From NCBI GenBank assembly GCA_039984955.1, contig JBDWTN010000007.1:1062501-1126500 (forward strand): a stretch of DNA of 64,000 nucleotides. The letters are read 5' to 3'. This document shows positions 7,200 to 48,710 of the stretch, piece by piece. The translations under genes and the position numbers were made by a program. Numbering within the stretch: the stretch's first letter is position 1; each line of letters begins with the position of its first letter. The notes below the pieces were generated by a model. That model ran no database searches. It saw nothing but the letters and a program-made list of their open reading frames with translations, and had not been told where the DNA came from. The stretch comes from Marinobacter alexandrii (GTDB lineage Bacteria > Bacteroidota > Bacteroidia > Cytophagales > Cyclobacteriaceae).

Positions 7200-7619
7200 T
7201 TATTCCCCGTAATAATCCACGAAATTACGAGGGGTTTCGTAGAGTCTAAGTCTATATAGCGAAGCTGTAGAACTAATTCTTGGAATATGTGCTTGCAGTA
7301 TTTTCCAAAATTCAATGATCAGGTTTTCACAACTACCCATCTTATTCTCCATAAATGGCACATCTAAATTGATGTTTTTATGATCTACCTTATCAATTAT
7401 TTCTTGGCTTATTACATCACTTAATTTTTTAAGATCAATAACAAATCCAGTAGAATCATTGACTTTTCCTTTCACAGAAGTAATTAACTCGAAATTATGC
7501 CCATGCCAATTTTTGTTGGCGCAGGGTCCGAAAACTTCTAAGTTCTTTTCCTCACTCCAGCTTGGGTTGTATAGTTTGTGAGCAGCATTGAAATGTTCCT
7601 TTCTATGAACGATAATCAT
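7200..7619 (-). CDS. queD: 6-carboxy-tetrahydropterin synthase / PTPS family
   Basis: QueD/6-pyruvoyl-tetrahydropterin synthase family enzyme. In queuosine synthesis it converts dihydroneopterin triphosphate to 6-carboxy-tetrahydropterin, the substrate of QueE, which is encoded at 20230-20847. Zinc ligands are visible: His14 in HFNAAH and His39 and His41 in WHGHN, with the catalytic Cys33 in GPCANKNWHGH. The Cys-to-His spacing matches the eukaryote-like PTPS branch, so pterin synthase activity is an alternative. Length 139. It is the first gene of a two-gene unit with the LpxB-like protein (TAA then ATG adjacent). Confidence 0.85.
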   Translation of the reverse strand: MIIVHRKEHFNAAHKLYNPSWSEEKNLEVFGPCANKNWHGHNFELITSVKGKVNDSTGFVIDLKKLSDVISQEIIDKVDHKNINLDVPFMENKMGSCENLIIEFWKILQAHIPRISSTASLYRLRLYETPRNFVDYYGE

Positions 7620-7648
7620 GCTCTAAAGTCATTTATAACAAAACGTAG

Positions 7649-10578: not shown

Positions 10579-10598
10579 GTTTTAATAATCTTTTAAAG

Positions 10599-10630
10599 CA
10601 AAAAAAGGGCCATAGTACTATGGCCCTTTT
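10599..10630 (-). terminator. Terminator between fasciclin and M43 protease genes
   Basis: A perfect 28-base palindrome at 10603-10630 with the GC-rich core GGGCCATAG/CTATGGCCC. On the minus strand it is followed by a run of T. It ends the susC-susD-lipoprotein unit but lies only 21 bases upstream of the M43 protease ATG, so read-through would control protease expression. Confidence 0.85.
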
Positions 10631-10648
10631 ATAACATATATTTATAAT

Positions 10649-12550: not shown

Positions 12551-12551
12551 A

Positions 12552-13490
12552 TTATTCTGCTTGCTTAGTTAAAGTGAATTGATATGCTCCAAAAGTTGCT
12601 AATGGCCCTTCACATTTAATAGAAAAATTACCCTCACTGTAACTTGAAGTTTCAAATACAAAATTTCTAAAAAGGGCTACATTCGGTGCTGGCTCACTGA
12701 AAGAAACTTGACCTGGACAGGTCAAAAAGGTTACTACCAAACCGTCATTAAAGTACTGATCGAATCCAGTAGAATTAGTAATGATCCCTTTCGTTCCTGT
12801 GACATCAGATGGATCTAATGCTATTTCAACCTGATAAGATTCAGCAAAGAAATCTGACAATCCACTAGGAGCATTAGTACCCGCAGTGAAATTTTCATCT
12901 ACAGTATATACTCCAACCCAGTCAGCTATAGTGATTGGACAATCGTCATCAATTATGGTTACCGTTAGGGAAGTCTGAGGATTAGAAGAAGTTAAACCTA
13001 ATTCTCCCGTACTTGTTTCCGTCAATGTTATATTAATTGCTCTATCTCCAGTTGCTACAACATCATCAGCAATAGCTACAAAAAATGAACCTCTAGTCTG
13101 TCCAGCAGGTATCGTAATTGTACCCTCATTGCTAAAAGTAACAGTACCAGAAGCATCATCTCCTTCATCGAAGAAATCTGATGTAACTGCATACGTCGTT
13201 GTAGCAGTGAAATTAATCGTGGCATCAGAACTAAAATCAGTACCTGTTCTAATAACCGCTACTTCTAACGTGTTTTGCGTCGTGATTGATGTTGATCCAT
13301 CAGGAGTGGATACAACATTAGAAGTCTCACTAACCTCTGATGGAGTTGTAGGATCGAAATATACTTTTATCGTTCCTGTCAAATCATCATTTATCAGTTC
13401 TCCCGAATCCTCCTCTTCACATGCCCCAATAACAAATGTTAGCATGAGCAGGAAGAAAAATCTATTAATTAAATTATTATGTACTTTCAT
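12552..13490 (-). CDS. Calx-beta-like domain lipoprotein of SusCD locus A
   Basis: A 312-residue lipoprotein with lipobox FVIGAC and an acidic EEEDSGE run behind the Cys. The N-terminal half resembles a Calx-beta domain: a TLEVAVIRTGTDFSSDATINF strand pair in a Thr-rich context, TITIPAGQTRGSFFVAIADD, then SLTVTIIDDD, which is the characteristic end. The C-terminal half (ITIADWVGVYTVDEN onwards) is of unknown fold and contains two Cys. It lies between susD (11-base gap) and the fasciclin gene (one-base gap), so it is an operon member and probably an outer-membrane ligand-binding accessory. The substrate is unknown. Confidence 0.75.
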   Translation of the reverse strand: MKVHNNLINRFFFLLMLTFVIGACEEEDSGELINDDLTGTIKVYFDPTTPSEVSETSNVVSTPDGSTSITTQNTLEVAVIRTGTDFSSDATINFTATTTYAVTSDFFDEGDDASGTVTFSNEGTITIPAGQTRGSFFVAIADDVVATGDRAINITLTETSTGELGLTSSNPQTSLTVTIIDDDCPITIADWVGVYTVDENFTAGTNAPSGLSDFFAESYQVEIALDPSDVTGTKGIITNSTGFDQYFNDGLVVTFLTCPGQVSFSEPAPNVALFRNFVFETSSYSEGNFSIKCEGPLATFGAYQFTLTKQAE

Positions 13491-13501
13491 GTCAAATTAA
13501 T

Positions 13502-14959
13502 TTATTGTTCGTAACCAGGATTCTGTGTTGTAATCGCCGGGTTAGCATCCAATTCAAACAGTGGAATAGGTAAGGTGAATCTGAAGTCATCAGAAGCTAT
13601 GGAACAGTTACCAAAGTTTGTACATTCGGCATCTGGTCTACTGACTGATACTCCCGCTCTCACTCCTAGTCTTTTAAGATCTCTATATCTATGACCCTCA
13701 AAAGCAAATTCGATTCGTCTTTGCTCTAACACTGCGGCAAAAGCTGCAGTTTGATTAGCCACAGCTGGTGTTGCTACATCTGTCCCAAATCTAGCATCTC
13801 TCAATTCATCAATAAATGTTGCAACAGCAGCAAAATCACTTGAAGAGGCCGCCGCTTCCGCTCTTATTAACAACATATCAGCTGATCTAAATATCTTTAG
13901 ATCATTGAGAAGAGGCTGCCCTCCTGATCCAGGATATTTACCTACAGGAAGTACAGCATAATCAGGAGCTGCTGATTCATCAACATACACCTCTCTACGA
14001 ATGTCTCCGTCAGGCATTAAATCAAATAACTGCGAACTCATTACGAAGTAAGGAGATCCATCCACAGTTGGATTCACAAAAGCATAGTTTGCTCCTGCCC
14101 AGCCTCCGGCGTTAGCACTACCCGTAGCACCCTGACCGTCATACGGATCACCAACAGATCTTTCCAATTTAAAGATAATCTCCGTATCATCTGAATCATC
14201 CCACATACCTTCAAATTGGGTTGTATTTGAAATTGGATAATTTGCAAGTAGGCTAGCTGCTAATGCATCTGCAGTAGTATAATCCTCCGTGTAAAGAGCT
14301 ACCTTAGCTCTCAAAGCAGTTACAAAATCTTGACTTACTCGTGTTGGACTACTCTGTACTGTTAACAATCCTGCGGCAGTAGTTAAATCCTCACCAATCT
14401 GAGTTAAGAATTCTGTACTTGTCGCTCTTGGCAACTGAGTCGCAACTTCGGGAACAAAATTTACCAACAGAGCAGATAAAGCTGTACCATCTGTGTAGTT
14501 AATTGTGTAATACGACCAAAGTTCAAATAAGCCCCATGCCCTTAATGCGTAAGCCTCACCTAACACATTATTATATGCGTCAACCTCATCTTCTTCTGCT
14601 TCAATTAAATCAGCAGCTTCGATAATTCGATTAGCCGAGTTTAGCGCATCGTAATACGTCTGCCAAATAGAAGATGTAACTGCAGAACCTGTATTTACAA
14701 TACCGGAATAAACTGCTTGCCCTTGTCCTCCATTATCAGGACCAATTGCTATTTCATCCGTAAAATTGGATGCCCATTGCATCGAAGGAGTGTAATCAAA
14801 TTGATTATACGTTCCTAGGATACCAGATTCCAGATCAGCTAAAGACTGAAATGCCTGTTCAGCTCCAAGTCTTCCAACTTGATCTATATCTATCGACTCG
14901 TTACAACTTACAGTAAGTGCAACTAAGCCTAGAATAATATATTTATTCATTTTCTTCAT
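13502..14959 (-). CDS. SusD/RagB family nutrient-binding outer-membrane lipoprotein (locus A)
   Basis: Lid lipoprotein of a SusCD importer. The lipobox TVSC is followed by NESIDIDQ. The SusD N-terminal region (AEQAFQSLADLESGILGTYN) and TPR-like helices (LGEAYALRAWGLFELWSYY) are followed by the conserved C-terminal block QRRIEFAFEGHRYRDLKRLG, which is the RagB/SusD signature. Length 485. It is encoded 18 bases after its SusC partner. The ligand cannot be predicted; the downstream secreted protease suggests a peptide. Confidence 0.93.
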   Translation of the reverse strand: MKKMNKYIILGLVALTVSCNESIDIDQVGRLGAEQAFQSLADLESGILGTYNQFDYTPSMQWASNFTDEIAIGPDNGGQGQAVYSGIVNTGSAVTSSIWQTYYDALNSANRIIEAADLIEAEEDEVDAYNNVLGEAYALRAWGLFELWSYYTINYTDGTALSALLVNFVPEVATQLPRATSTEFLTQIGEDLTTAAGLLTVQSSPTRVSQDFVTALRAKVALYTEDYTTADALAASLLANYPISNTTQFEGMWDDSDDTEIIFKLERSVGDPYDGQGATGSANAGGWAGANYAFVNPTVDGSPYFVMSSQLFDLMPDGDIRREVYVDESAAPDYAVLPVGKYPGSGGQPLLNDLKIFRSADMLLIRAEAAASSSDFAAVATFIDELRDARFGTDVATPAVANQTAAFAAVLEQRRIEFAFEGHRYRDLKRLGVRAGVSVSRPDAECTNFGNCSIASDDFRFTLPIPLFELDANPAITTQNPGYEQ

Positions 14960-14977
14960 GTTATATCAAATTATTGA

Positions 14978-17900
14978 TTAAAAACCTAGCTCTATTCCCA
15001 ACGAGAATGTTCTTGGCGTTGGATAAAGCCTTGAACCTGTGGTACCTTCAACATCAAATCCTCTCCAATCAGTAAATGTTAAGATATTCTCACCATTTAC
15101 AAATACTCTTGCTCTTTGAAGGAATCCAGTCTTATCGAGCATAGATTTCGGGAAATCATAACCAATGGTTGCAAATCTAATTCTTAAGTAATCTGCATTT
15201 CTTAAAAATCTATCACTTGCAAGTGCTCTGTTGGTTGCATTCAATCTTGGGATATCCGTTACTCTATTAGTTGGAGTCCAAGCACGATTTATGTCTCTTG
15301 AGTGTCTGAATTGACCAATATTATTAGGATTGATAAACCCAGCATAATCATTATCAAATCGATATACACCTATTACGTAGTTTGTTTGAATCTGAACAAA
15401 CACTCCTTTATAGTCAAAGTCAATATTAATACTACCCTGATAGTCTGGAATATTGTTCTTCCCTGTCCAAACTCTATCATTATCAGCATCAGGAGTTTCT
15501 GTAATCTCTCCATCGGCCGTTAAAAACAATAAGTTACCATTAGCTGGATTCACGCCTGCATATCTCACAGCGAATACTTCTCTAATAGGGCCTCCAATTC
15601 TACCAACACCAACTTGCTCTTCAAGACCTCCTGGAAACTCTAATAATTCGATTTTATTATAGTTACCAACAGTTCTAACAGTTAAGTTAGGACCATTAGG
15701 ATTTCTCAAAACATCATAGGCAAGTTCTAAATCTACTCCTCTATTTCTCATTTCACCAAAGTTCGCGTTAATGCTTGTTACAGATGTAACTGCTGATACA
15801 GGAACTGACTGAAAAAGACCACTTGTCGTTTTCTGGTAAAAATCCACTTTGGTTCTTAGTCTACTTTGAAACAATTCAGCATCTAATCCAATATTAAACT
15901 GCTCTTGTTCTTCCCAACTCAAACTTGAATTACCTATTTGACTTAGGAACAATGAATTAGCTCCACCGTAACCTGCGCCAGTTGCAAAAAGGTCTCTGGT
16001 TCTATCAGGAGAAGAAAATACTTGGGATTCATTTAATGCTACGTCAAGCACATTGATAACCTGGTTTCCTGTCACACCATAAGATGCTCTTAACTTAAGG
16101 ATATCAAATGGTAAATTTGAAGCGAAAGACTCATTGTGAATATTCCATCTCGCTGCAGCTGACCAAAATGTACCCCACCTGTTACTCTCAGCAAATCTGA
16201 ACGAAGCATCTCTTCTTACAGTGAAATCGGCACCATATTTTGAATCATAGTCATATCCAGCTGTACCAAAGTACGAGAATAATCCTGCTTGTAAAATATT
16301 CGCTCCGACGGTATTTGCGAAGAAGTCGTTAGTAGCATTATCAGGGACAAATGCACTTCCGTCACCAGGGGAGAATGTTTTAGGATCTAATCCATTGGAT
16401 CTAAAGTTAAATTGATCATGTCTAGCTCGAAAGTTTTCAGTATATAACCCACCAGTTATGGTGTGTAAATCAAACGACTTTGTATAATTAAGACTCGCTA
16501 ATTGATTATATCTAAACTCTCTAGTAAATCGCTGATCCTGGAATCCAGGAGTAGTATTACCTGTCTGAGCAAATAGAATTGCATTAAAAGAATTAGGTCC
16601 TTCAGCTCGTGTTAATATCTCTTCCTGAAAATCTCCAGAAATTTGGTATCCTATTCTCAACCCATCAATTATTTCATATCCTAAATTAATGGTTCCAATA
16701 ACTTTCAATTCATTCTCAGTCCTTGTGTAGGTATTCAATCTATCTATCAAGAATAGAGGAGTATTTGCGAAAGCAAGTGGTACCTGAATATCAGCGCCAT
16801 TTGTATACTCATCTGGAGTTACATAAGTCACGGACTGATAAGCTCCTAAAATGTAGTTACGGTTAATACCTCCACCACCAATTGCATTAGGCTCTTCACT
16901 ATCTGAATAATTTAATGAAGTATTAACTGAGTAAGTGAATTTACCGTTATCGTTTTTACCTGAAAGGTTTGCTCTAATATTACCTCTTTCAAGACTACTA
17001 CTTTGAAGTATTCCTTCCTGATTTAAATAACCAAAATTGAGAACGACTCTTGTATTTTCACCTCCTTTAGTCAAAGATAAATTATGCTGCTGCGCAATTC
17101 CTTGATCAAAAAAGAAATCCACATAGTCTGCATTCTTATTTGTTGCTATTGAATCCAGTTGAACATTCGTAAGTGGCAAATAACTTCCATCAGATTGAAT
17201 ATTCAATCCAGGAATACCCTGACCTGTTCTATTTTGATGATAAATCGGTGCTGGACCAAGACCCAATCCGAACGCCGCTCTTTCAAGCTCTAATTGCTCA
17301 CGTGTTCCCATCAGGTCATAACCATTATCCTGAAGCTTTGAAGAAGCTACTCTATATGTATATTCAATTTGTAATGGGCTACCGTAAGTTCCTTGTCTCG
17401 TTGTTACAACAATTACTCCATTTGCTCCTCTGTTTCCATAAATAGCAGTTGCTCCCGCATCCTTAAGAACAGAAACTGATTCAATATCATTTGGGTTAAG
17501 GCTTCTAAAGTTATCCTGATTTACAGGTGCTCCATCAATAATAAATAATGGCTCAGTATCTCCATTGATTGAACCAATACCTCTAATATTCACATTAGAG
17601 TTAGCTCCTGGCTGACCGCTTGTCGTTGTAATATTCAGACCTGCCACTTGTCCCGACAATGTCTGAACAAATGAGGGGTTCGGTCGATTTTGAATATTCT
17701 TGTTTGAAACAGTAGCTGCCGAAATACTTGATTTCTCTTTAGTTGTGCTACTGTAACCAGTAACAACAACCTCTTGAAGCTCAGTAGCTCCACCTAGGGT
17801 TACATCAATTGTAGTTCGTGCTCCTATTAGAATCTCCTGAGTTTCAAAACCCACATAGGAGAAGGTAAGTGTAGCACCATCTTCAACTGAAAGACGGTAA

Positions 17901-18073
17901 TTTCCATCAAGATCAGTTGTAACACCTGTTGTTGTGCCTTTAATCACAACATTCACTCCTGGTAAGGTCTCACCTGTGTCGTCAGTGACCTTTCCAGAAA
18001 CCGTCCTTTGCGCCATTGCACTGAATGCAACAACAGTTAAGAACGCAAAACTTAGTAGTAAAATCCTCTTCAT
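14978..18073 (-). CDS. SusC/RagA family TonB-dependent transporter (locus A)
   Basis: Outer-membrane TonB-linked importer of 1031 residues. After a signal peptide (LLLSFAFLTVVAFSAMA then Q) come a carboxypeptidase-regulatory-like domain (about 22-108, RTVSGKVTDDTGETLPGVNV), the TonB-box region ELQEVVVTGY, and a plug domain with the SusC signature (GIGSINGDTEPLFIIDGAPV). The beta-barrel fills the rest and ends with the aromatic strand PRTFSLGIELGF. It is the first gene of an operon with susD and two lipoproteins. The N-terminal domain is very similar to the SusC at 39964-43002, but the plug and barrel diverge, so the ligands probably differ. Confidence 0.95.
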   Translation of the reverse strand: MKRILLLSFAFLTVVAFSAMAQRTVSGKVTDDTGETLPGVNVVIKGTTTGVTTDLDGNYRLSVEDGATLTFSYVGFETQEILIGARTTIDVTLGGATELQEVVVTGYSSTTKEKSSISAATVSNKNIQNRPNPSFVQTLSGQVAGLNITTTSGQPGANSNVNIRGIGSINGDTEPLFIIDGAPVNQDNFRSLNPNDIESVSVLKDAGATAIYGNRGANGVIVVTTRQGTYGSPLQIEYTYRVASSKLQDNGYDLMGTREQLELERAAFGLGLGPAPIYHQNRTGQGIPGLNIQSDGSYLPLTNVQLDSIATNKNADYVDFFFDQGIAQQHNLSLTKGGENTRVVLNFGYLNQEGILQSSSLERGNIRANLSGKNDNGKFTYSVNTSLNYSDSEEPNAIGGGGINRNYILGAYQSVTYVTPDEYTNGADIQVPLAFANTPLFLIDRLNTYTRTENELKVIGTINLGYEIIDGLRIGYQISGDFQEEILTRAEGPNSFNAILFAQTGNTTPGFQDQRFTREFRYNQLASLNYTKSFDLHTITGGLYTENFRARHDQFNFRSNGLDPKTFSPGDGSAFVPDNATNDFFANTVGANILQAGLFSYFGTAGYDYDSKYGADFTVRRDASFRFAESNRWGTFWSAAARWNIHNESFASNLPFDILKLRASYGVTGNQVINVLDVALNESQVFSSPDRTRDLFATGAGYGGANSLFLSQIGNSSLSWEEQEQFNIGLDAELFQSRLRTKVDFYQKTTSGLFQSVPVSAVTSVTSINANFGEMRNRGVDLELAYDVLRNPNGPNLTVRTVGNYNKIELLEFPGGLEEQVGVGRIGGPIREVFAVRYAGVNPANGNLLFLTADGEITETPDADNDRVWTGKNNIPDYQGSINIDFDYKGVFVQIQTNYVIGVYRFDNDYAGFINPNNIGQFRHSRDINRAWTPTNRVTDIPRLNATNRALASDRFLRNADYLRIRFATIGYDFPKSMLDKTGFLQRARVFVNGENILTFTDWRGFDVEGTTGSRLYPTPRTFSLGIELGF

Positions 18074-18322
18074 ACTTACTAGTTAATCGTTAAACATTAA
18101 TTATTTGAACCCGAAAGATATCTCTTTTTAAGAATAATTAACAAACTCTTAATTCGATCAAATTGACCTTAAAGCATATGAGATAATGTTTTTAAGGTAT
18201 TTATTAGCTGTTTTTGAAAAAAAAATGAGATTCGCCAAATAATAACCTATCACTCTCACTAAAACTTTAATTTAATTCTGAATAAAGAAAATTTCGAAAA
18301 TTGTAATAAAAAGTAGAACCTT

Positions 18323-20275
18323 TTATTGGTTCACTCGTAGGACACGAAATTCTATTCTGCGGTTGGATTTTCTGTTGGAATCTGTTGTATTAGGCAATAA
18401 GGGCTGCAAATCGGCATATCCCTTGAAAGATATTCTACTCCTTGATATGCCTTTAGAAGTAAGCATATCATATACAGCACCTGCTCTTTTTTCTGATAAT
18501 TGTTGATTATAATTTTTTGATCCAATGTCGTCAGTATGACCAGCAATCTCTACTATCATGTCTGGATTTTCAATTAAAAGTTGATAAGCATTATCTAATT
18601 CGGAGATTGATTTCTTTTTTATCTCATAGGAATCTATGTCGAAATAAATGTTTTTAAGTATCAGGGATTCTCCTTCCGATATAGGTTTGAGCTTGATGTT
18701 TATTGTATCTGGTTCTGAAACTTTATTGGTCTGCGTTGTGAAATGAAAGTCAGAATATAGATATCCTTTCTTCTTAACATAAGCTGCTAATTCCAGTCCT
18801 GCAGGTACAATCATCAGATAGCTACCTGTTAATGAGTCGGACTCATTTCTATAGATTACTTTGTTCGTATTCAGATCGATTATTTCCACCTCTGCTTTCA
18901 AAGGAATTAGAGTTTCCTTATCTGTTACTCTTCCTATGTTATACGAAACTGGATCGGGTCGAATTTCTTTAGGTAACGTGATACTTACAATTTTGCTATC
19001 CAGTATTTCAAAATTCTTTTGTTCTTCCTTAGCGAAATATGCCATTTGACCTTCGGCACCTATTATTATAGCTACTTCGTCTTTAAATGTATTAATAGGA
19101 AAGCCCAAGTTTCTCGGAATGGACCACAAAGAGTCAGTTTTAGAAGAGACGAAAAGATCATATCCTCCCATCCCAGGGTAGCTATTTGCTGAGAAATACA
19201 AATCTGAACCATTCGGATGGATAAATGGTGTGGTCTCATCTTTTGGAGTATTTACATCTCCACCCAGATTTATGGGAACAGACCATTTTCCGTCTGCACT
19301 TTTAGATACCCAAATATCCCTACCTCCAAGCCCTCCTGTCCGGTTAGAGGAAAAGTACAAGGTTTTGCCGTCTGCTGATAATGAGGGTTGTGATTCCCAG
19401 TATCTTGAGTTTATAGGCTTTCCAAGGTTTTTAGGCTTAGACCAATTATCACCCACTTTTCTTGTAATGTATAAATCACAGCTACCTAAAGAGTATTTTC
19501 CATCACAAGAAGTGAAAATCATCGTTCTTCCATCAGCGGATACTGCACAAGCTCCTTCATTTAGCGATGAGTTTATTCTAGGTGAGATTGATTCTGCAGG
19601 AGTCCATTTTCCATCTACAAAATGACTAACTACGATATCTTCATCTCCCTGAACATAATCTCTCTTCGTGAAAAACATGGAAGCATTGTCGACTGTAATT
19701 GATGGTAAATATTGAAGTTTGAATCTGTTTACCTCAGAAGGTAATATCTTTAATTCGATACTATCAACAGGCTTTTTTAACTCCTTTTTAGCAAATCTTA
19801 TACTTCGAATTAAGAGGTCAATATCTCTACTGGATTCACGTTCAGGCACCTTCACTAGGAATTTATTAAGGAAGGATTCAGCTTTCCCATATTCACCTCG
19901 ATCAAAAGCCATAAAGGCAAGTCTCTCTAATACTGAGGCAATAGGGTCTAGAGCTGTTTTTTCGTAAAGTTGGAACTTTGAATAAACTGAATCTTCTTGA
20001 CCCATCGCATTATACAAACTCCCCATACGGATGTAAGCCTCAAAAAATTCAGAATCTTGTCTAACCGATTCTTCCAAATACGATATAGCAGTGAGGAAAT
20101 CTCGTTCCTTATATTTCTTATCTGCCTTTTCATATAGCTTTTTTGCTTTTTTGCTATCAGTGGAAAGTCCCGACTGAGCAAATGAAACTGTAGAAATTGC
20201 AAGTAAGAGAAGAAGGGAGAAAACTCTCTTTATGGAATATCCATGTATTTGTGTGTCTGTAGTGATATTTTCCAT
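18323..20275 (-). CDS. PorE-like OmpA family protein (TPR, PD40 propeller, CRD, OmpA)
   Basis: A 650-residue envelope protein with the domain order of the T9SS component PorE: N-terminal TPR helices (about 35-160), WD40-like PD40 repeats (about 190-420, with repeated SLSADGKTLYFSSNR-type blades), a carboxypeptidase-regulatory-like domain (about 440-535), and a C-terminal OmpA peptidoglycan-binding domain (AGHTDDIGSKNYNQQLSEKRA). Bacteroidota have many such paralogues, so the PorE role is inferred. The only usable ATG (20275) lies 46 bases inside queE and gives a signal peptide with an unusually long n-region before VFSLLLLLAISTVSFA. It is the last gene of the lepA-folD-queE unit. Confidence 0.85.
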   Translation of the reverse strand: MENITTDTQIHGYSIKRVFSLLLLLAISTVSFAQSGLSTDSKKAKKLYEKADKKYKERDFLTAISYLEESVRQDSEFFEAYIRMGSLYNAMGQEDSVYSKFQLYEKTALDPIASVLERLAFMAFDRGEYGKAESFLNKFLVKVPERESSRDIDLLIRSIRFAKKELKKPVDSIELKILPSEVNRFKLQYLPSITVDNASMFFTKRDYVQGDEDIVVSHFVDGKWTPAESISPRINSSLNEGACAVSADGRTMIFTSCDGKYSLGSCDLYITRKVGDNWSKPKNLGKPINSRYWESQPSLSADGKTLYFSSNRTGGLGGRDIWVSKSADGKWSVPINLGGDVNTPKDETTPFIHPNGSDLYFSANSYPGMGGYDLFVSSKTDSLWSIPRNLGFPINTFKDEVAIIIGAEGQMAYFAKEEQKNFEILDSKIVSITLPKEIRPDPVSYNIGRVTDKETLIPLKAEVEIIDLNTNKVIYRNESDSLTGSYLMIVPAGLELAAYVKKKGYLYSDFHFTTQTNKVSEPDTINIKLKPISEGESLILKNIYFDIDSYEIKKKSISELDNAYQLLIENPDMIVEIAGHTDDIGSKNYNQQLSEKRAGAVYDMLTSKGISRSRISFKGYADLQPLLPNTTDSNRKSNRRIEFRVLRVNQ

Positions 20276-39963: not shown

Positions 39964-42900
39964 ATGCTTATGAAAAAGTTTTACTTTTCATTGATTGTGT
40001 GTCTTTTGGCAGTGACTCAGGTCTTTGCTCAAAGAACGGTATCTGGAAAGGTGACCGACGATGTTGGTGAAGGCCTACCCGGAGTGAACGTAGTGATAAA
40101 AGGCACTACTACAGGAACTACTACTGATATTGACGGAAACTATCGGTTAGAGGTTCAAGATAATACCACTCTAGTGTATTCTTTTGTCGGATTCGAAACT
40201 CAGGAAGTTACTGCAGGAGGAAGATCAGTGATAGATGTTACGATGGGTGGTGTAACGGAGTTACAAGAAGTTGTAGTTACTGGTTACGGTGTTCAACAAA
40301 AATCTGATTTGACAGGAGCTATTGGTCAAGTCAAAGGAGAAGATCTCCAAGACCTGCCTGTTCCAGGAGTGGATCAAGCTCTTCAGGGAAGGGTAGCAGG
40401 AGTGAACGTAATATCTGCCAATGGGCAACCAGGTGGTGGTATTTCAGTTAGGATCAGGGGAGCATCTTCGATTAACTCTAACAATCAGCCACTTTATGTG
40501 ATAGATGGTGTTCCTGTTGAAAGTTTTGACACTCAATCAACCGCCCAAGGAACTTTTGGAGGTTTTGGAGGTCAAACAGGTAACTCTCTCAATCAAATAA
40601 ACTTCAATGATGTTGCATCTATCGAAGTATTGAAAGATGCATCTGCAACTGCTATTTATGGAAGTAGAGCAGCTAATGGAGTTGTGTTGATCACTACCAA
40701 AAGAGGAAAAGCCGGACAAGCGAGAATCAGTGCTTCTTACACTGCTGGTGTTTCAGAAGTGTTTGAATTACCAAGCTTATTGAATGCCGAGCAGTATGAA
40801 CTATTGCATAGAGAATCTGTAACAAATGCTGGAAATACTCCTGATGACACATTTTACGGAGATGCAGAAACCGATTGGGTAGATGCAATTTTCAGAACAG
40901 CAAAAATTAGTCAATTCAACATATCTGCCTCTGGGGGATCTAATGATTTAAACTACTTTGTATCTCTTCAAAATGATGACCAAGAAGGAACGATGCTCGG
41001 CACGGGATTCAGAAGAACAACTGCAAGAGTAAATCTCGATGCAAAACTTTCTGACAAGGTTGATTTTGGAACTTCACTATTGTTTGGAAATACAAAAGAT
41101 ATCATTCAATCGGGTGATAATTTCATTATAGGCCCATTCTTTAGCGCACTTAGGAGTAGGCCTGACCTTCCAATCTATAACGATGATGGAACGTTTGCAA
41201 CTACCAATCAATTTGATAATGCTGTAGCTGCTACGACGTATGAAAATACGTTTGTTAGTAACCGTTTTCTTGGATCCTTCTTTGCTCAATATGAAGTAAT
41301 TGACAATTTGATTCTGAAAGGGACTATCTCGCTTGATAGAGTAGGCGTTAATCGTGAACTATATTGGCCAAGTACCACATTAGGAGGAAGGTTGAATGGA
41401 AACGTTTTTATAGAAAGAGGTTTTGATGAACAACGTACTTTCAATAACACGTTCACAGCTAACTATAAATTCGACTTAAATGAATCTAATAGATTCAATG
41501 TATTAGTTGGAGCAGAATGGCAACTTGTAGATAGAGATCAATTTTCTGCATCTGCTGCAGGGCTACCAAATGATATCTTAAGAACATTGAATTCCGCAGC
41601 TAACCCTGTGAATACTGATGGACTTAAGACAGAATGGGGTCTTCAATCATATTTCACTAGAGTTAATTATGGTTATGGAGATAGATATTTAGCAACAGTA
41701 ACAGTTCGAACCGATGGTAGCTCAAGGTTTGGTGAAGATAACCGCTTTGGCATCTTCCCTTCCGTAGCTGTAGGATGGAATGTGATGAATGAATCATTTT
41801 TCAATTTCGAAACCGTTAACAATCTAAAAGTTAGAGCTAGTTACGGAGTTACAGGTAACCACAGAGTAGGAAACTTTGCTTCTCGTGGGCTTTTCGGAGG
41901 AGGCTTTTCCTATGGAGGAAATCCAGGAACTGCACCAACTCAAATTTCAAATCCATCATTGAAGTGGGAAGAAACAGCACAATTTGACGTTGGGTTAGAC
42001 TTTGGATTATGGGGATCAAGAATTACAGGTTCAATTGACTACTATGTTAAGACAACCACTGATGTATTGCTTCTTGCACCACTGCCAAGATCTACAGGTT
42101 TTAACAATGTAAATCAGAACATCGGTGAGATTGAAAACAAAGGAATCGAGATTGAACTATCGGGTGATGTTATCTACACAAACGATTTCCAATGGAATAT
42201 ATCTGGCAACATTGCTTTTAACAGAAACAAGATTCTTTCCTTAGTTGACGAAAATGATATTCTAGCTACAGGTTTTAATCAAAGTATTGTTAGAGTAGGT
42301 CAGCCTATTGGAGCCTTCTTTGGATGGCAAGTGGAAGGCATCTTCCAAGATCAAGCCGAGATTAACGAGCTAAATGGTGCTTCTCCAACTGGGTTATACC
42401 AAGCAGCTGGAACTTCTCCAGGCGATCTTAGATTTCAAGATACTAACGGAGATGGGCAAATTACAGCAGATGATCGTGTAATCACAGGATCTGCTCAGCC
42501 AGACTTTATAGGCGGTATCACAAGTACAACTACTTATAAAGGCCTAAGTCTTACTGCTTTCTTCCAATTCTCTCAGGGGAATGACATTATCAATTTGACT
42601 AATACCGAGTCATTGATTTTTGAAGATGCTGACAATGTTTCTACTCGCGTACTTGATAGGTGGACTCCTTCAAATACAGACGCAACATTGCCTCGAGTAG
42701 TACAAGGTGATCCAAACAATAACGCTAGAAATTCTAGTCTTTTTGTTGAAGATGGATCGTTCATCAGACTTAAGACACTACGTCTAGGGTACACACTTCC
42801 TCAAGAATTATTGTCGAACGTATTTCTTTCGAATGTGACTGTATTTGCTCAAGGCACTAATCTTTTGACTATCACTGATTACTCAGGTATTGATCCTGAA

Positions 42901-43002
42901 ATAAACACTTTTGGTCAAAATAATAGTACTGCTCTTGGAGTAGATAACAGTACTTACCCTGGTGGTAAGACTTACACTTTTGGTGTTAAGCTAGGATTTT
43001 AA
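39964..43002 (+). CDS. SusC/RagA family TonB-dependent transporter (locus B)
   Basis: Outer-membrane importer of 1012 residues with a signal peptide (FYFSLIVCLLAVTQVFA then Q). The carboxypeptidase-regulatory-like domain (RTVSGKVTDDVGEGLPGVNV) is very similar to that of locus A, then ELQEVVVTGY and the plug with RIRGASSINSNNQPLYVIDG. The barrel ends with the aromatic KTYTFGVKLGF. The plug has a locus-specific Gly/Gln-rich stretch (GTFGGFGGQTGNS) absent from locus A. It is followed after 14 bases by susD. Confidence 0.95.
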   Translation: MLMKKFYFSLIVCLLAVTQVFAQRTVSGKVTDDVGEGLPGVNVVIKGTTTGTTTDIDGNYRLEVQDNTTLVYSFVGFETQEVTAGGRSVIDVTMGGVTELQEVVVTGYGVQQKSDLTGAIGQVKGEDLQDLPVPGVDQALQGRVAGVNVISANGQPGGGISVRIRGASSINSNNQPLYVIDGVPVESFDTQSTAQGTFGGFGGQTGNSLNQINFNDVASIEVLKDASATAIYGSRAANGVVLITTKRGKAGQARISASYTAGVSEVFELPSLLNAEQYELLHRESVTNAGNTPDDTFYGDAETDWVDAIFRTAKISQFNISASGGSNDLNYFVSLQNDDQEGTMLGTGFRRTTARVNLDAKLSDKVDFGTSLLFGNTKDIIQSGDNFIIGPFFSALRSRPDLPIYNDDGTFATTNQFDNAVAATTYENTFVSNRFLGSFFAQYEVIDNLILKGTISLDRVGVNRELYWPSTTLGGRLNGNVFIERGFDEQRTFNNTFTANYKFDLNESNRFNVLVGAEWQLVDRDQFSASAAGLPNDILRTLNSAANPVNTDGLKTEWGLQSYFTRVNYGYGDRYLATVTVRTDGSSRFGEDNRFGIFPSVAVGWNVMNESFFNFETVNNLKVRASYGVTGNHRVGNFASRGLFGGGFSYGGNPGTAPTQISNPSLKWEETAQFDVGLDFGLWGSRITGSIDYYVKTTTDVLLLAPLPRSTGFNNVNQNIGEIENKGIEIELSGDVIYTNDFQWNISGNIAFNRNKILSLVDENDILATGFNQSIVRVGQPIGAFFGWQVEGIFQDQAEINELNGASPTGLYQAAGTSPGDLRFQDTNGDGQITADDRVITGSAQPDFIGGITSTTTYKGLSLTAFFQFSQGNDIINLTNTESLIFEDADNVSTRVLDRWTPSNTDATLPRVVQGDPNNNARNSSLFVEDGSFIRLKTLRLGYTLPQELLSNVFLSNVTVFAQGTNLLTITDYSGIDPEINTFGQNNSTALGVDNSTYPGGKTYTFGVKLGF

Positions 43003-43016
43003 AATCAGACAATATC

Positions 43017-44381
43017 ATGAAAAATATATTAATGAAATTCACATACATTATTGTGTTATTTGTCTTTGTTACTTCGTGTGACCTATATGACAATTTAGAC
43101 ACAGTTCCGGCTCAAAGCTTGTCGGATGCAACTGCTATTACAAATCCAAATGATGCTGAATCTGCTCTTACGGGTGCATATGCTGCATTGAATCAAGATG
43201 GTTACTATGGAAGAATGCAAATTATTTGGGGTGCTAATCAGTTTATCTATTTAGGCTCCAATGCTTCTACCACTCGAAATTCCACTTTTGATTCCGAGAA
43301 TAACAATGTAAACCCTGTAGATAATACATTATTAGGTACATGGGATGACATTTATGAATTAGCAGATAGGTCTTCAAATGTAATTACGGCTGTTGAGTTA
43401 TTGGACGATGCAGCCTTTACTGAAGGTAGAAAAGAAGGATTATTAGCAGAGGCACGTTTTCTGCGAGCTTTAGCTCATTTCGATGCGCTTAGATTCTTCG
43501 GAAGATTCTGGGAATCTGGTTCAGAGGATGGAATTCCTTTGCGTTTAGTTCCTGGAAATACCACAAATAAGGATCTGGCAAAAGCAACTGTGGCAGAATC
43601 ATATGCTTCAATTACAGGAGACCTTGACTTTGCGATTGCTAATGCGCCAGACTTCACATTAAGCTATAGAGTATCAGCAGATGCTGCCAGAGCTTTAAGA
43701 GCTCGAGTTGCTCTGTATATGGAAGACTATGCAACTGCAATCGCACTTGTTGATGATGTGGTTCCAAACTTTACATTAGAAGCTAACTATGGAGACATTT
43801 TCGTTAACAGGTTATCGTCTTCTGAATTGATTTTCGGAATGTTTGCTAACGCTACTGTAGAACAATCTGGGCATTCATTCTTTTTCATCAGTCAAGCAAA
43901 TGGCGGGAGACAAGATTATGCTCCAACAGCTCAGTTTCTTAATTTAATTGCAGGGGATCCTAGGGAAGCATCAATTGTGAATGCGGTTCCTGAAGTGCTT
44001 AAGTACCCCAACGTGAATACTCAGGATGATCCGACCTATATTGTCAGATTAGCTGAACTTCATTTTATCAAAGCTGAAGCTCTTGCTAGACAAGCTGCTC
44101 CGGATCTTGAAGCAGCCAAGGACGCGTTATTCTTTGTAAGTGATCGAGTAGGATTAGCAAGATCAGCTGCTACTACAATAGCTGAATTCTTGGATGAACT
44201 TCAGGAAGAAAAAGTAAAAGAGCTTGCTTTTGAAGGCAGTCATTCCTGGTTTGATGCAATTAGGTTAGGCAATGTTAGAACCCTAAAGTCAAGTATAACT
44301 ACTGACGACAGGCTAATACTTCCGTTTCCACAAACAGAAGTAGACACTAACGCTGCTCTTGAGCAAAATGATTCTTATTAA
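43017..44381 (+). CDS. SusD/RagB family nutrient-binding lipoprotein (locus B)
   Basis: A 454-residue lid lipoprotein with lipobox VTSC followed by DLYDN. The SusD landmarks are NDAESALTGAYAALNQ, LLAEARFLRALAHFDALRFFG and a C-terminal LDELQEEKVKELAFEGSHSWFDAIRLG, the RagB/SusD signature. It is the partner of the SusC upstream. The ligand is unknown. A terminator follows its stop. Confidence 0.93.
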   Translation: MKNILMKFTYIIVLFVFVTSCDLYDNLDTVPAQSLSDATAITNPNDAESALTGAYAALNQDGYYGRMQIIWGANQFIYLGSNASTTRNSTFDSENNNVNPVDNTLLGTWDDIYELADRSSNVITAVELLDDAAFTEGRKEGLLAEARFLRALAHFDALRFFGRFWESGSEDGIPLRLVPGNTTNKDLAKATVAESYASITGDLDFAIANAPDFTLSYRVSADAARALRARVALYMEDYATAIALVDDVVPNFTLEANYGDIFVNRLSSSELIFGMFANATVEQSGHSFFFISQANGGRQDYAPTAQFLNLIAGDPREASIVNAVPEVLKYPNVNTQDDPTYIVRLAELHFIKAEALARQAAPDLEAAKDALFFVSDRVGLARSAATTIAEFLDELQEEKVKELAFEGSHSWFDAIRLGNVRTLKSSITTDDRLILPFPQTEVDTNAALEQNDSY

Positions 44382-44403
44382 CTAATCTAGTTTTTTACAA
44401 TTT

Positions 44404-44430
44404 AAAAGGGCCCATATGGGCCCTTTTTTT
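44404..44430 (+). terminator. Terminator between susD and metalloprotease (locus B)
   Basis: A perfect 24-base palindrome at 44404-44427 with the core GGGCCCATATGGGCCC and a T tail. It lies only 14 bases upstream of the protease ATG and is analogous to the palindrome at 10603-10630 in locus A. Confidence 0.85.
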
Positions 44431-44444
44431 AACCTCTCATTTAA

Positions 44445-46862
44445 ATGAAAATCTGGGCTTACTTATTACTTATCATACCTCATATTGTTCTTCCACAAAG
44501 CATACAATTCCATCCAGGAGAAAAAACAATTTGCTATGCTTCTGACAAAGTTGAAAACACACATATACCAGCAAGTTTTTTAGGTGGTAGGCTTGCAAAT
44601 ACTACGGAAACAAGCGCTGAGATATCAGTCTCTTATAATGGATTCACTAATGAAGCTAGAATAGCTTTTCAATACGCGGTAGATATCTGGGCTCAAACAA
44701 TTACATCAGATGTTCCAATTAGAGTTACCGCCAACTGGTCACAATTAGGTCCAGGAGTACTAGGGTCAGCAAGTGCAACCAGTACTGTCAGCAACTTTGA
44801 AAATGCACCTGAAAAAGATACAAGATACCCACTAGCTTTAGCTGAAAAGCTCGCCAGAAAACAATTAAATTTCGAATCTCAATCCGAAGTTTCTGCCAAC
44901 TTCAACAGTCAGATTGACTGGTACTTTGGAATTGACGCAAATCCTCCATCAGATCAATATGATTTAGTTTCTGTCGTACTACATGAGATCGGTCACGGCC
45001 TAGGATTCTCAGCCTCATTTGGAGCCAACGCTCAAATAGCTGCCTGGGGTTTAGGAAATACTGGACAACCAAATACTCCGATAATTTACGATCTCTATTT
45101 AGTCGATAGGCTAGGTAATCAACTTATCGATGAAGATGTTTACGCTAACAATTCTGCAGAATTATTGGCTGCTGTAACAAATAATAGTGTTTCTTATGGG
45201 AGTTCATTGGCGGAAGATGTCTATGGGACATTTCCACCAATCTTCGCACCTAATCCATGGAATGGTGGCTCTAGTATTTCACACTTAGATGAATCTGTAT
45301 TCCCAGCAGGAAATGAAAACTCATTAATGAGTCCTCAGTTTGGACTCGGTGAGGCCATACATCTTCCCGGCGAAGTAACTAAAGCAATATTTTCTCAACT
45401 TGGTTGGGTACATACATTCATTGATCATGATGAAATTGTTTTTGCTGAAAGCCCTGGTGTTCCAGTTCGATTTCTTATAAAACTGGAAAGTGACTCCTTA
45501 ATCAATGCAAGTAATACCGAGCTCATTATATCAGAAGATAATTTCAATACCTCTACTATCTATAATTTAAGCCAAAGCAGTAATGATGATTTATATGAAA
45601 TTTCAATTCCATATGAAGACTTGCCAGACGAATCATCATACTATTTTAGATATACAAGTCCGGAAGGAAGGATTTACCAATTTCCAGAAGAAGGTTTTAA
45701 CAATCCACTCTCTGTGATAAAGGAACAAGACAATGAGGGGCCCTCAATTTCCCATGTCCCAGTCAGTTTTATTCTTCAAGAAGAATTTGATATAGAATTT
45801 AGTGTTGAGGATAATTTCGCTATTGACACTTTATATATTGAATATAAGACCACTGAAAATGGAGATAGCAATTATAAAGGTCTTGATTTTGAAGTTTCAG
45901 AAACAGAAAAGTTCGAGTTAAATAAAAGTGACTTAGGTCTTTCAGAAGATGATACTTTATTCTACAAAATCCATGCGCTAGATGTATCAGTCAATCAAAA
46001 CACATCCTCATTTCCACAAGCAGGATTCATTAGAGGTAGAGTCATTAACATTAGCGAGCAAGTCGATTTCTATTCCTTGAGTTTTGATACTCCTGAAGCT
46101 GGGGATTCATTGGTTTTAAATAATCTAAAAATGGAAACTGGGGAAGGTTTTTCATCCATGGCTATCGTTTCTGATCACCCGTATAAAAATGACGCACAAG
46201 GGCTTGCCTCCTTTATCCTAAAACATCCTATTAGGCTTAAAGAAGATTCCAAACTATCATTTGATGAGATATTATTGATCGAGCCTTCTACAGAAATAGT
46301 TATAAACGATTATTTAATCATTGAAGCATCTTCTGATAACGGTAACACATGGGTCCAAGTAGGTGAAATAGCAGATGCAAGCAATGACGATCAGTGGCTA
46401 ATGAGATACAATTCAAACGTTGAAGCTTCCGGTTCTTTGGCTACAGGAGATGCTTCACTATACAAGCAAAGAGAAATTGATTTGGTAGGACAAGCTCTAC
46501 CATTTTCTTCCAATGACAATCTCATTATCCGTTTTTCATTCGTTGTAAACAGTACAGTAAATGGATGGGGAATAAGGATTGACAATCTGAAAATTGGAGA
46601 TGGAATAGTATCAGCAGTAAAAAGTGAATCGCCAATTCTCATCTATCCAAATCCTGTCTATGAAACACTTCGCATTAACAATGCTAAAAGTGAGAATTAC
46701 AAAATGATTATTCGTGCTTTATCAGGTCAAGAAATAGATCATATTGATCTATCAGAAAATACAGACTACAAAACGCAGAAACTTCAACCAGGCATTTATC
46801 TACTCGAGATTAGAGACGAGCGTGGGAAAACAATTAAAACTGAAAAAATTATAAAAAAATGA
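44445..46862 (+). CDS. Secreted T9SS metalloprotease, HExxHxxGF type (locus B)
   Basis: An 805-residue secreted protein. A signal peptide (IWAYLLLIIPHIVLPQ) is followed by a catalytic domain with HEIGHGLGFSASF (His180, Glu181, His184). The third His expected in HExxHxxGxxH is not there (Ser/Ala instead), so the third zinc ligand must lie elsewhere, as in other bacterial secreted proteins with HEIGHGLGF. Beta-rich domains follow; the C-terminus is a T9SS sorting domain (ILIYPNPVYETLRINN, ending EKIIKK). It differs from the M43-type protease of locus A but plays the same positional role. Its stop overlaps the next ATG by four bases. Confidence 0.85.
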   Translation: MKIWAYLLLIIPHIVLPQSIQFHPGEKTICYASDKVENTHIPASFLGGRLANTTETSAEISVSYNGFTNEARIAFQYAVDIWAQTITSDVPIRVTANWSQLGPGVLGSASATSTVSNFENAPEKDTRYPLALAEKLARKQLNFESQSEVSANFNSQIDWYFGIDANPPSDQYDLVSVVLHEIGHGLGFSASFGANAQIAAWGLGNTGQPNTPIIYDLYLVDRLGNQLIDEDVYANNSAELLAAVTNNSVSYGSSLAEDVYGTFPPIFAPNPWNGGSSISHLDESVFPAGNENSLMSPQFGLGEAIHLPGEVTKAIFSQLGWVHTFIDHDEIVFAESPGVPVRFLIKLESDSLINASNTELIISEDNFNTSTIYNLSQSSNDDLYEISIPYEDLPDESSYYFRYTSPEGRIYQFPEEGFNNPLSVIKEQDNEGPSISHVPVSFILQEEFDIEFSVEDNFAIDTLYIEYKTTENGDSNYKGLDFEVSETEKFELNKSDLGLSEDDTLFYKIHALDVSVNQNTSSFPQAGFIRGRVINISEQVDFYSLSFDTPEAGDSLVLNNLKMETGEGFSSMAIVSDHPYKNDAQGLASFILKHPIRLKEDSKLSFDEILLIEPSTEIVINDYLIIEASSDNGNTWVQVGEIADASNDDQWLMRYNSNVEASGSLATGDASLYKQREIDLVGQALPFSSNDNLIIRFSFVVNSTVNGWGIRIDNLKIGDGIVSAVKSESPILIYPNPVYETLRINNAKSENYKMIIRALSGQEIDHIDLSENTDYKTQKLQPGIYLLEIRDERGKTIKTEKIIKK

Positions 46863-47539
46863 AATCACTAATCGTTTTAGCTATATGTCTATTCTCTCTC
46901 AAAAAGGCAGTTTCACAAGAAGCAAAAGGTTTTGTGAATACTAGTCAAACCGCAGAAAATATCGAAAATGGTAATACGCTTAGAACATTTGATGAAAGGT
47001 ATGAAGGCATTGAGGGGCACCCATACATGTTCAATGAAAATCAGGAAATATGGCTAGTCACAATAAAACCAGACACCATTTTAATCTTTGGGAACTTAAA
47101 TCTAGAAGCTAAAGAATTAATTTCAGTAAGTCCCGATAGGGTTAAGGGGATTATTCCTTTAAGGAATATCTCATATTTCTTGGTGGATGGTGTTAGCTGG
47201 AATGAAATTCAAATCAATGATAAAAAACACGTCGTTTCAATAGTTTATGCATCCAAAGCTTTTAAAGTTCTCAGATCGCATGATAAAGTACTCGAAAGAG
47301 CCGATTATGCAGGTGCTTATTCAAGTGGAGAAACGAAAGATGAATTTAAATATAAAACATCGCTATGGCTTGAAATGGATAATAAATTAACTCCATTTAA
47401 AATGAGAGCTAGTAATTTATCTGAGATCTTCAATTTACCAGCTAAGCAAATAAGATCATTAATTAAGAAGAGTTATTTAGATCTTAATAGAGCAGAGAAT
47501 TATTTTGAAATTTTAAAACTATTGGATGAAAATAGTTAA
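46859..47539 (+). CDS. Small exported protein coupled to the metalloprotease (GxPY family, locus B)
   Basis: A 226-residue exported protein of unknown function. Signal peptide: SLIVLAICLFSLKKAVSQ. The mature part has GHPYMFNEN, a beta-rich stretch with RNISYFLVDG, a SSGETKDEFKYKTSLWLEM strand pair, and helical NLPAKQIRSLIKKSYLDLN at the end. The layout matches the locus A protein at 7649-8338: length, G(S/H)PY motif, and C-terminal helices. It overlaps the protease stop by four bases, and the lipoprotein that follows by 14, so all three are coupled. Confidence 0.75.
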   Translation: MKSLIVLAICLFSLKKAVSQEAKGFVNTSQTAENIENGNTLRTFDERYEGIEGHPYMFNENQEIWLVTIKPDTILIFGNLNLEAKELISVSPDRVKGIIPLRNISYFLVDGVSWNEIQINDKKHVVSIVYASKAFKVLRSHDKVLERADYAGAYSSGETKDEFKYKTSLWLEMDNKLTPFKMRASNLSEIFNLPAKQIRSLIKKSYLDLNRAENYFEILKLLDENS

Positions 47540-47912
47540 GATATTAATCATTGCATTCTCTATAATTTCTTGCTCAAGAAGTGGTACTCATTTTCGTATA
47601 GACATAAACCCAGGGCTTCAACCAATAAAAGTTTCATCTATTCTCTTGATTGAAAAACCTTACAAGACAAAGTTGAGTTTCATAAATGAGTTAAAGGAAA
47701 AACATAATCTAACAGTTGAGAATAAAAACCTTATTGCCTTAATCAAGAAGTACAACCCACCTGAAGAATTGGAAATTCAGGAAGTAGATAAGCCTTCATT
47801 CATCATCTATAAAAAGGGATTGAAACCAGTGTATGTACACCTTCAATCAACATTGCACGCAGAACTATCTTCCTTGCTTTTTTCTCTAGATACTATGGAA
47901 CTATCTAAATAA
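47526..47912 (+). CDS. Small lipoprotein, function unknown (locus B)
   Basis: A 128-residue protein with a type II signal (ILIIAFSIISC, lipobox IISC) and no recognisable domain. The mature part is Lys-rich with alternating strands and helices (SFINELKEKHNLTVENKNLIALIKKY). It starts inside the end of the GxPY gene (14-base overlap) and ends 12 bases inside the end of the convergent AraC gene. It has no counterpart in locus A. Confidence 0.7.
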   Translation: MKIVKILIIAFSIISCSRSGTHFRIDINPGLQPIKVSSILLIEKPYKTKLSFINELKEKHNLTVENKNLIALIKKYNPPEELEIQEVDKPSFIIYKKGLKPVYVHLQSTLHAELSSLLFSLDTMELSK

Positions 47913-48710
47913 AGATCCTTTTTGCATAAAGAATCTCTTAGGGCTTGTGTCAAGAAAGTACTTAAAGTCTTTAATCAAATGAGATTGATCATAATAGCCG
48001 CACAGATAGGTGATCTCAGTTAAGCTTTGATCACAACTATCTCTGTAAGTCCTAATGAAATGATTGATTTTTTCGATTTTACAATACTCTTTTGGGGTAA
48101 GTCCAATTTCACGATTAAAATGTTGCTCTAATTTAGATTTACTGACATTCAAAGAGGAATATATTTCCTTAACCGAGATTGTACCATATGAATTTCTAAT
48201 CTTGCCTATCGATTCTAATATGGTAATGTTGTGATCAAAGAATGAATTTTTACTAGCAAAGCACTTTATCAATATTTCCTCCATTTGATGGATACTTTGC
48301 ATTCTTGAAGCCCTGTTAATGGCTTGTAAGGTTGATTGATTTAATCCAAGCTCGAAAACTCCATTAAAAATTTCTTTTAACCCCCTAGATATCCCATATG
48401 CATACATAGGATTGATTTTAACTAACAAGTATTCACTGTCTTTTGCGATTGTAATCTCCGTTCCTCTTCTTCTTGGCATTAAAAAATATCCAATGCCTTC
48501 TCTCATTAATATTGACCTGGCGCTTCCTAGAGCTTTGAAAGATAGATTCCCACTCACTGGTATAAATATTTCAGCTGTATTATCCGGAACTAAAATTTGC
48601 TTTGAAGGAACATTGAGTGAGTCAATCAACAAGATCTCTTCAACAATAGATATGTCTTCTTCAATTACTATTTCTTCTATGTACATTTTGGTGATATTTG
48701 TTTCATCCAA
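47901..48710 (-). CDS. AraC family transcriptional regulator
   Basis: A 269-residue regulator. The C-terminal AraC HTH pair is clear: ISVKEIYSSLNVSKSKLEQHFNREIGLTPKEYCKIEKINHFI and SLTEITYLCGYYDQSHLIKDFKYFLDTSPKRFF. The N-terminal domain (about 1-150) is a probable cupin-like sensor without a recognisable ligand site. The gene faces locus B, convergent to the lipoprotein gene. A 20-base perfect palindrome lies about 47 bases upstream of its ATG. Confidence 0.88.
   Translation of the reverse strand: MDETNITKMYIEEIVIEEDISIVEEILLIDSLNVPSKQILVPDNTAEIFIPVSGNLSFKALGSARSILMREGIGYFLMPRRRGTEITIAKDSEYLLVKINPMYAYGISRGLKEIFNGVFELGLNQSTLQAINRASRMQSIHQMEEILIKCFASKNSFFDHNITILESIGKIRNSYGTISVKEIYSSLNVSKSKLEQHFNREIGLTPKEYCKIEKINHFIRTYRDSCDQSLTEITYLCGYYDQSHLIKDFKYFLDTSPKRFFMQKGSLFR

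Follow-up and report, generated by a model that had tools for sequence, protein, structure and literature searches.

A SusC/SusD importer locus with a terminator hairpin ahead of an exported metalloprotease and a small protein of the unnamed GxPY family

Protein is food for many Bacteroidota, and the import loci of these bacteria have been charted mostly for glycans. Locus B (positions 39964–47912) of the window, i.e., the whole analysed stretch of 64,000 nucleotides from Marinobacter alexandrii (contig JBDWTN010000007.1), raises the question of why a gene run that starts with a SusC/SusD-type (SusCD) outer-membrane importer and continues with an exported protease carries a transcription terminator in its middle. 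The answer somewhat favoured here is that locus B is an oligopeptide-foraging locus, similar to RagAB plus gingipains, in which the enzyme and a periplasmic accessory protein would be made below the level of the importer. The locus is composed of the following parts:

39964–43002, + strand: susC B, SusC/RagA-type TonB-dependent outer-membrane importer, 1012 aa; TIGR04056 (907.5 bits, cut-off 368.25), PF07715, PF13715.
43017–44381, + strand: susD B, SusD/RagB lipoprotein lid, 454 aa; PF14322 (6e-16) and PF07980 (6.3e-12), both over the cut-off.
44404–44430, + strand: terminator B, a 24-nt perfect palindrome (44404–44427) and a T run to 44430.
44445–46862, + strand: protease B, metalloprotease with a type IX secretion system (T9SS) sorting domain, 805 aa, motif HEIGHGLGF; matches to NF038122, PF00413, PF18962 and TIGR04183.
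46859–47539, + strand: small exported protein B, GxPY family, 226 aa; signal peptide followed by Gln, no sorting domain found, no Pfam or NCBIfam family.
47526–47912, + strand: small lipoprotein B, 128 aa; SISCS lipobox recognised by eye, no Pfam or NCBIfam family over its cut-off.

These parts, the span of the locus, the palindrome 14 bases before the protease ATG, the 4-base overlap of the small gene with the protease gene and the 14-base overlap of the lipoprotein gene with the small gene had been listed in the initial annotation of the window, and all are borne out by the sequence. The importer is a full-length RagA/SusC protein with carboxypeptidase-regulatory (PF13715) and plug (PF07715) domains, and the gene of the SusD/RagB lipoprotein lies directly 3' of susC after a gap of 14 bp. 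The protease had been described as an HExxHxxGF enzyme with a sorting domain, and both features were recovered: besides the motif HEIGHGLGF, it has a C-terminal type A sorting domain (PF18962, E-value 3.4e-9, 37.3 bits, cut-off 27; TIGR04183, E-value 1.4e-10, 41 bits, cut-off 23), which identifies it as type IX secretion cargo. Its catalytic region matches NF038122 (metallo_LGF) with 66.3 bits, under the curated cut-off of 80, and matrixin/Peptidase_M10 (PF00413) with 19.4 bits, under the gathering cut-off of 24. Judged by these matches, the protease is related to the NF038122 and matrixin families and is not filed as a member of either. A sequence search of the PDB with the catalytic region gave a single weak match, to a matrix metalloproteinase (E-value 0.27).

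The hairpin between susD and the protease gene has the properties of an intrinsic terminator, namely, a G+C-rich stem, a U run and a stability exceeding that of shuffled sequences; folded as RNA, the stretch reaches −18 kcal/mol (z −3.26), a value equalled by 1 of 200 shuffles. The general terminator scan, which applies a stricter tail rule, picks up the hairpin of locus A, a second locus of the window described below, and misses that of B, probably since half of the T run of the latter is base-paired within the stem. For comparison, 108 regions were picked mostly in rank order from the matches listed, a choice that favours close profile matches and brings in close relatives. Genes were called as longest open reading frames, and hairpins were located by our own script with fixed thresholds, which accepts weaker T runs than the general scan does. 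A terminator-like hairpin on the coding strand was found in 21 of the 22 gaps of 40–200 bp between the SusCD run and the protease/small-gene unit, versus 55 of 382 other same-strand gaps (Fisher p 9e-16); ahead of small genes without SusC, it was present in 5/24 gaps. Counted by runs, some gap contains a hairpin in 27 of 32 SusC-linked runs (one of which, in L203, starts with a 115-aa SusC fragment), and in L042 and L061 the hairpin lies 295 and 1124 nt, respectively, ahead of the next start. The five runs first scored without a hairpin were L039, L102, L108, L110 and L112. A rescan reaching 150 nt past the upstream stop, made after these five misses were seen, revealed hairpins in L039, L102, L110 and L112, which had been missed because over-long gene calls covered them, versus 23 of 491 short same-strand gaps scanned likewise. 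L108 has an inverted repeat visible by eye, which the script left unscored also on the rescan. In L039, the closest relative of locus B, the hairpin follows susD, as in B. The hairpin sequences vary between distant loci, and their place is kept.

A further hairpin was observed in the window's own genome (L173:1757–5074, − strand), where a SusCD run and two more genes are followed by an exported subtilase-like protein encoded 19 nt behind the hairpin; no small GxPY gene was detected in this run.

The initial annotation had seen locus B as a repetition of the plan of locus A, with a different protease. Locus A is arranged as follows:

14978–18073, − strand: susC A; PF07715, PF13715.
13502–14959, − strand: susD A; PF07980 (1.9e-20).
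12552–13490, − strand: lipoprotein A-1, 312 aa; weak LapA/Calx-beta similarity under the cut-off.
10649–12550, − strand: lipoprotein A-2, 633 aa, with fasciclin domains; PF02469 (7.6e-43).
10603–10630, − strand: terminator A, intrinsic, with a 12-bp stem, ahead of the protease; −19.9 kcal/mol, z −4.04.
8338–10572, − strand: protease A, M43 metalloprotease with a T9SS sorting domain, 744 aa, motif HELGHYFTLYH; PF05572 (6.1e-7), PF18962 (5.3e-17).
7649–8338, − strand: small exported protein A, GxPY family, 229 aa; profile match at 1.8e-36, AlphaFold2 (AF2) model with a pLDDT of 86.7.
7200–7619, − strand: PTPS-family gene; PF01242 (6e-28), borders the slot of cassette A on one side and is not a part of the cassette.

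The proposed sharing of the terminator position stands as far as the wide conservation of the hairpin place in the gaps counted above is concerned, and needs amendment for A, in which the hairpin follows two extra lipoprotein genes and not susD. These two genes (10649–13490, − strand), placed between susD A and terminator A, encode the fasciclin-repeat lipoprotein and the weakly Calx-beta-like one.

No similarity between the small proteins of A and B was found by BLASTP, and their identity is 18%. Nevertheless, profile A1, built of 26 sequences (the B protein as one row and relatives from the 146 genomes searched, the A protein not included), aligns to the A protein over 215 columns (hhalign probability 99.7, E-value 2.6e-25) and retrieves it from its own genome (1.8e-36) together with three other clear members. 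The AF2 models of both proteins (pLDDT of 77.8 for B) have a common order of a signal-peptide helix, a low-confidence stretch, a strand run and three terminal helices, a likeness at the level of the predicted order of elements. Thus, by profile and predicted element order, the two proteins are one family, as the annotation had held, and the models give no sign of the unrelated folds that would have spoken against it. Foldseek gave no match for either model at an E-value ≤ 0.001. The first small barrel of both proteins can be aligned to the SH3-like barrel of YgdI/YgdR-type (DUF903) small lipoproteins: the A model matches a YgdR-type barrel at the top rank (Z 5.3, root-mean-square deviation 3.3 over 53 residues), and the B model does so (Z 4.5, 2.7 over 50 residues) in a tie with CgeA and Hfq chains. 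This match spans about 50 of 226–229 residues, its Z may reflect a mere common arrangement, and the GxPY proteins differ in having additional strands as well as three helices at the C-terminus. For the B model, the matches to Hfq were set aside, as they reflect an arrangement common to small barrels.

No Pfam or NCBIfam model covers the GxPY family, library matches being limited to single members, and the sorting-domain model of Pfam is matched by no member. In the family alignment, the site where the signal peptide should be cleaved is almost always occupied by Gln, which fits export via signal peptidase I under the Bacteroidetes Q-rule (PMC5837995); the protein is probably soluble and periplasmic. 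At a threshold of 1e-6, matches to the GxPY family occur in 288 genomes (1–9 in each) out of the 295 from the window's taxonomic family. Named relatives with members (14 loci in total) include Cyclobacteriaceae metagenome-assembled genomes, Splendidivirga, Rufibacter, Pontibacter, Xanthocytophaga and others, and a search of viral contigs with the B small protein as a query found no relative. The tree of the small family has no starred set and long branches, and its support does not suffice for placing A or B; therefore, the history of the slot discussed below, in which cassettes may have been swapped in or may have diverged in place, was not read from it.

A second recurring link of GxPY proteins to peptidases was observed in L052, L060, L068, L070, L073, L076, L083 and L084, where a member lies 14–27 bp ahead of a subtilase-like gene (409–414 aa) with no SusC in the run; of these eight loci, the identity of the neighbour is supported by Pfam (S8 and I9 prodomain) in L052.

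The proteases of A and B had been called unrelated in their catalytic domains. BLASTP of these regions indeed reveals little in common beyond the HExxH pentapeptide. However, "unrelated" is too strong a word, as both are zinc HExxH peptidases with weak matches to metzincin-type models, which we take to belong to one clan. Protease A, for which the Pfam scan used a TTG start at 10578, has a sorting domain as well (62.3 bits with PF18962 and 51.4 bits with TIGR04183). The suggested exchange of the protease was confirmed by a survey of the same slot in relatives, in which M43, NF038122/matrixin-like, S8 and M28 peptidases, or none detected, occupy it. A peptidase lies between SusC and the small gene in 10/32 SusC-linked runs, being of the M43 type in A, of the B type in B and L039, and of the S8 type in seven (L099, L113, L123, L134, L137, L203 and L208). 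In 3/32 runs, it directly follows the small gene (M43 in L103 and L125, M28 in L034). The class was assigned by Pfam in A, B, L039, L099, L103, L125, L034 and L134 and by motif in the others; in L113, L123, L137, L203, L208, L058 and L122 it rests on a motif together with a home-made sorting-domain profile. L039 has the same plan and the same protease type as B, and in G005, a genome of the same genus, SusD, a protease 40% identical to the B type and a GxPY member follow in this order, as judged by coordinates. In G045, a family member lies about 440 bp ahead of the B-type protease, and G020 has a second protease convergent with a family member. A third plan of this kind was observed in the window's genome (L034:7870–15751, − strand), composed of SusCD, a lipoprotein, a hairpin, the small protein and an M28 peptidase.

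The association of the small gene with peptidases raises the possibility that its product serves the exported protease alone, as its inhibitor or chaperone, and guards the periplasm. The genes of the two overlap in A, B, L123 and L134, and peptidase-like genes make up 13 of 118 same-strand neighbours (≥100 aa) of the small gene versus 2 of 930 genes at a distance of at least four places (p 2e-11, for loci chosen for the small gene and with close relatives included). A single family, however, accompanies both metallo- and serine peptidases as well as runs lacking a detected peptidase, and elsewhere the small protein is encoded beside OmpA/PD40 and other genes, which makes such a dedicated role unlikely.

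In B, 14 bases separate the end of the T run (44430) from the ATG at 44445, and 17 nt lie between the stem end and the start codon; the latter distance is 15 nt in L079, L080 and L103, 15–20 nt in B and several relatives, 30 nt in A and 50–87 nt in some loci. A stem 15–17 nt from the start codon leaves no room for a promoter in between, and such a hairpin ahead of genes that need transcription points to read-through. The arrangement therefore fits a read-through attenuator as far as can be judged from the DNA; the word "switch", used in the initial annotation, goes beyond the evidence. Alternatively, the operon may stop at a strong terminator, the genes behind it being driven by an unrecognised promoter. 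The hairpin would then simply mark the end of the susCD transcript, with no role in dose, and the protease, small protein and lipoprotein genes would be an operon of their own, whose promoter starts within or upstream of the hairpin. Strong T-run hairpins do normally end transcription, the 50–87 nt between stem and start in some loci are enough for a promoter, and other SusCD runs have terminators behind them, too: a hairpin was found in 2/4 SusCD runs without the small gene, and in 5/12 first gaps of 40–213 bp, scored by eye, in 20 further SusD regions from three genomes (p 0.001 versus 21/22). Against a separate operon stand the short stem-to-start distances in B and its relatives and the fact that the hairpin keeps its place though the downstream gene switches between protease and small protein. 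The motif which we take to be the Bacteroidota -7 promoter motif was found in 1/22 hairpin gaps versus 92/382 other gaps (p 0.036). Its rarity, though, is not special to hairpin gaps (1/24 gaps ahead of small genes without SusC), and is weak support for read-through at best. On balance, a separate operon is possible and rather less probable than not.

The reading of locus B as a foraging unit with partial termination is weakened by the operon-end explanation, by the hairpins behind other SusCD runs and by the general rarity of the -7 motif, and the following counts from the wider sample weigh against it in the same way. SusC lies upstream in the same gene run for 28 of 115 distinct GxPY members of the fetched loci, the remaining members adjoining OmpA/PD40, subtilase and other genes; the occurrence of the protein is thus not confined to the SusCD–protease plan. 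Motif search, supplemented by Pfam for the M28 enzyme of L034, revealed no peptidase within or immediately behind 19/32 SusC-linked runs (Pfam covering a minority of these neighbours), which makes the protease an optional element. Among 33 of the 49 genomes with a match to the B protease, a family member directly behind the B-type enzyme occurs, by coordinates, in G000, G020 and G005 and not in the other 30. Nor is the importer the constant element proposed in the initial annotation, since SusCs that occur together with the small protein come from many clades of the SusC tree.

A true switch, in which an antiterminator, the ribosome or a ligand decides on protease synthesis at a regulated attenuator, would agree with the kept hairpin position (21/22 gaps) and with the short leader up to the start codon. 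It appears quite improbable, as the differing hairpin sequences of distant loci argue against one shared ligand or protein site and the AraC-type gene next to locus B is not at the same place in L039.

The oligopeptide-foraging reading draws on the SusC, SusD, sorting-domain and peptidase assignments and on the enrichment of peptidase-like genes next to the small gene. Under this reading, the signal peptide and the type IX sorting domain of the protease would take it to the cell surface, where it would cut protein, and SusC/SusD would import the resulting peptides through the outer membrane in the fashion of RagAB. A single transcription path would begin with susC and susD, and the strong intrinsic terminator after the importer part would pass only a fraction of the polymerases into the protease and small genes, so that, by partial termination, the importer would be abundant and the enzyme scarce. 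Being exported by Sec and lacking a sorting domain, the small protein would remain in the periplasm and most likely assist, as an escort or adaptor, those products of the operon that are exported or reside in the outer membrane. The enzyme module is evolutionarily replaceable, with at least four peptidase families found behind the terminator.

As SusC/SusD pairs mostly import glycans, the cargo may instead be a glycan or glycopeptide freed from glycoproteins, with the protease opening the protein part. A weak NanU match of the B SusD (36.8 bits, cut-off 425) points in this direction. On the other side, no carbohydrate-active enzyme family, as expected of a polysaccharide utilization locus (PUL), was found in the proteins of locus B (Pfam and NCBIfam scans) or locus A (Pfam); a glycan cargo is considered unlikely. 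Locus B shares with Sus-type PULs the order of susC and susD followed by lipoproteins and a degradative enzyme, and differs from them in that this enzyme is an exported peptidase.

Gingipains leave the cell by type IX secretion and, to our knowledge, are encoded outside the ragAB operon. According to passages of PMC11817032, RagAB of Porphyromonas gingivalis takes up gingipain-cleaved peptides and is encoded by a polymorphic locus with four alleles. Locus B resembles this system in combining a SusCD-type importer with an exported protease, whose peptide products the importer would take up. It differs in the peptidases, which in A and B belong to other families, and neither a small GxPY protein nor a terminator-split operon occurs in those passages. 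In Flavobacterium psychrophilum, passages of PMC9723704 propose that a SusCD system and a collagenase feed the bacterium on peptides, and name partial termination as a class of transcripts. Weak internal terminators with leak-through have been suggested inside the operon of a Bacteroides xylanisolvens PUL in passages of PMC4855328, which do not state whether they flank its susC/D genes. Among the matches listed in the literature on internal terminators in susCD operons and on SusCD with exported peptidases, no title or abstract start describes the SusCD–terminator–peptidase arrangement. With an architecture that unites importer, terminator and exchangeable peptidase as a rule, genomes could be searched for peptide-foraging loci, and it could be tested how a single gene run sets the doses of importer and enzyme; the GxPY proteins represent an unnamed family available for study.

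The small lipoprotein gene that closes locus B is absent from the syntenic locus L039. An xRRM match of its 128-aa product (14.5 bits, cut-off 23.7) was rejected. The adjacent gene for the AraC-type regulator (47901–48710, − strand) is convergent with locus B and overlaps the lipoprotein gene by 12 bases.

Locus A sits between an OmpA/PD40 gene (18323–20275) and the PTPS gene (7200–7619). This interval (7200–20275 in the window; also L197, L199, L201, L203, L208, L191, L193 and L204) was observed to be empty in some relatives and to hold various SusCD/peptidase cassettes in others, and is a candidate hot spot of exchange. A more far-reaching and rather doubtful idea is that of a widespread, undescribed and exchangeable peptide-foraging cassette in the window's taxonomic family, consisting of SusCD, a surface lipoprotein, a conserved attenuator, a peptidase of any class and a periplasmic GxPY adaptor that would link whichever enzyme is present with either the importer or type IX export, with cassettes of different SusC clades and peptidases replacing one another at the fixed OmpA/PD40–PTPS slot. 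PTPS was found within the next three genes of 13 distinct members of the GxPY family, 12 of which have SusC upstream. A second sample of the slot was drawn by PTPS alone (40 regions requested, 20 obtained, PTPS found in 19). In these 19 regions, SusCD with a subtilase and the small gene occurred in 2, SusCD with a subtilase in 1, SusCD without either in 1 and a subtilase only in 1; OmpA/PD40 was 166–214 bp from PTPS with nothing between in 3, an opposite-strand gene adjoined PTPS in 9, and other genes were present in 2. The SusCs of the filled slots are spread over several separate clades.

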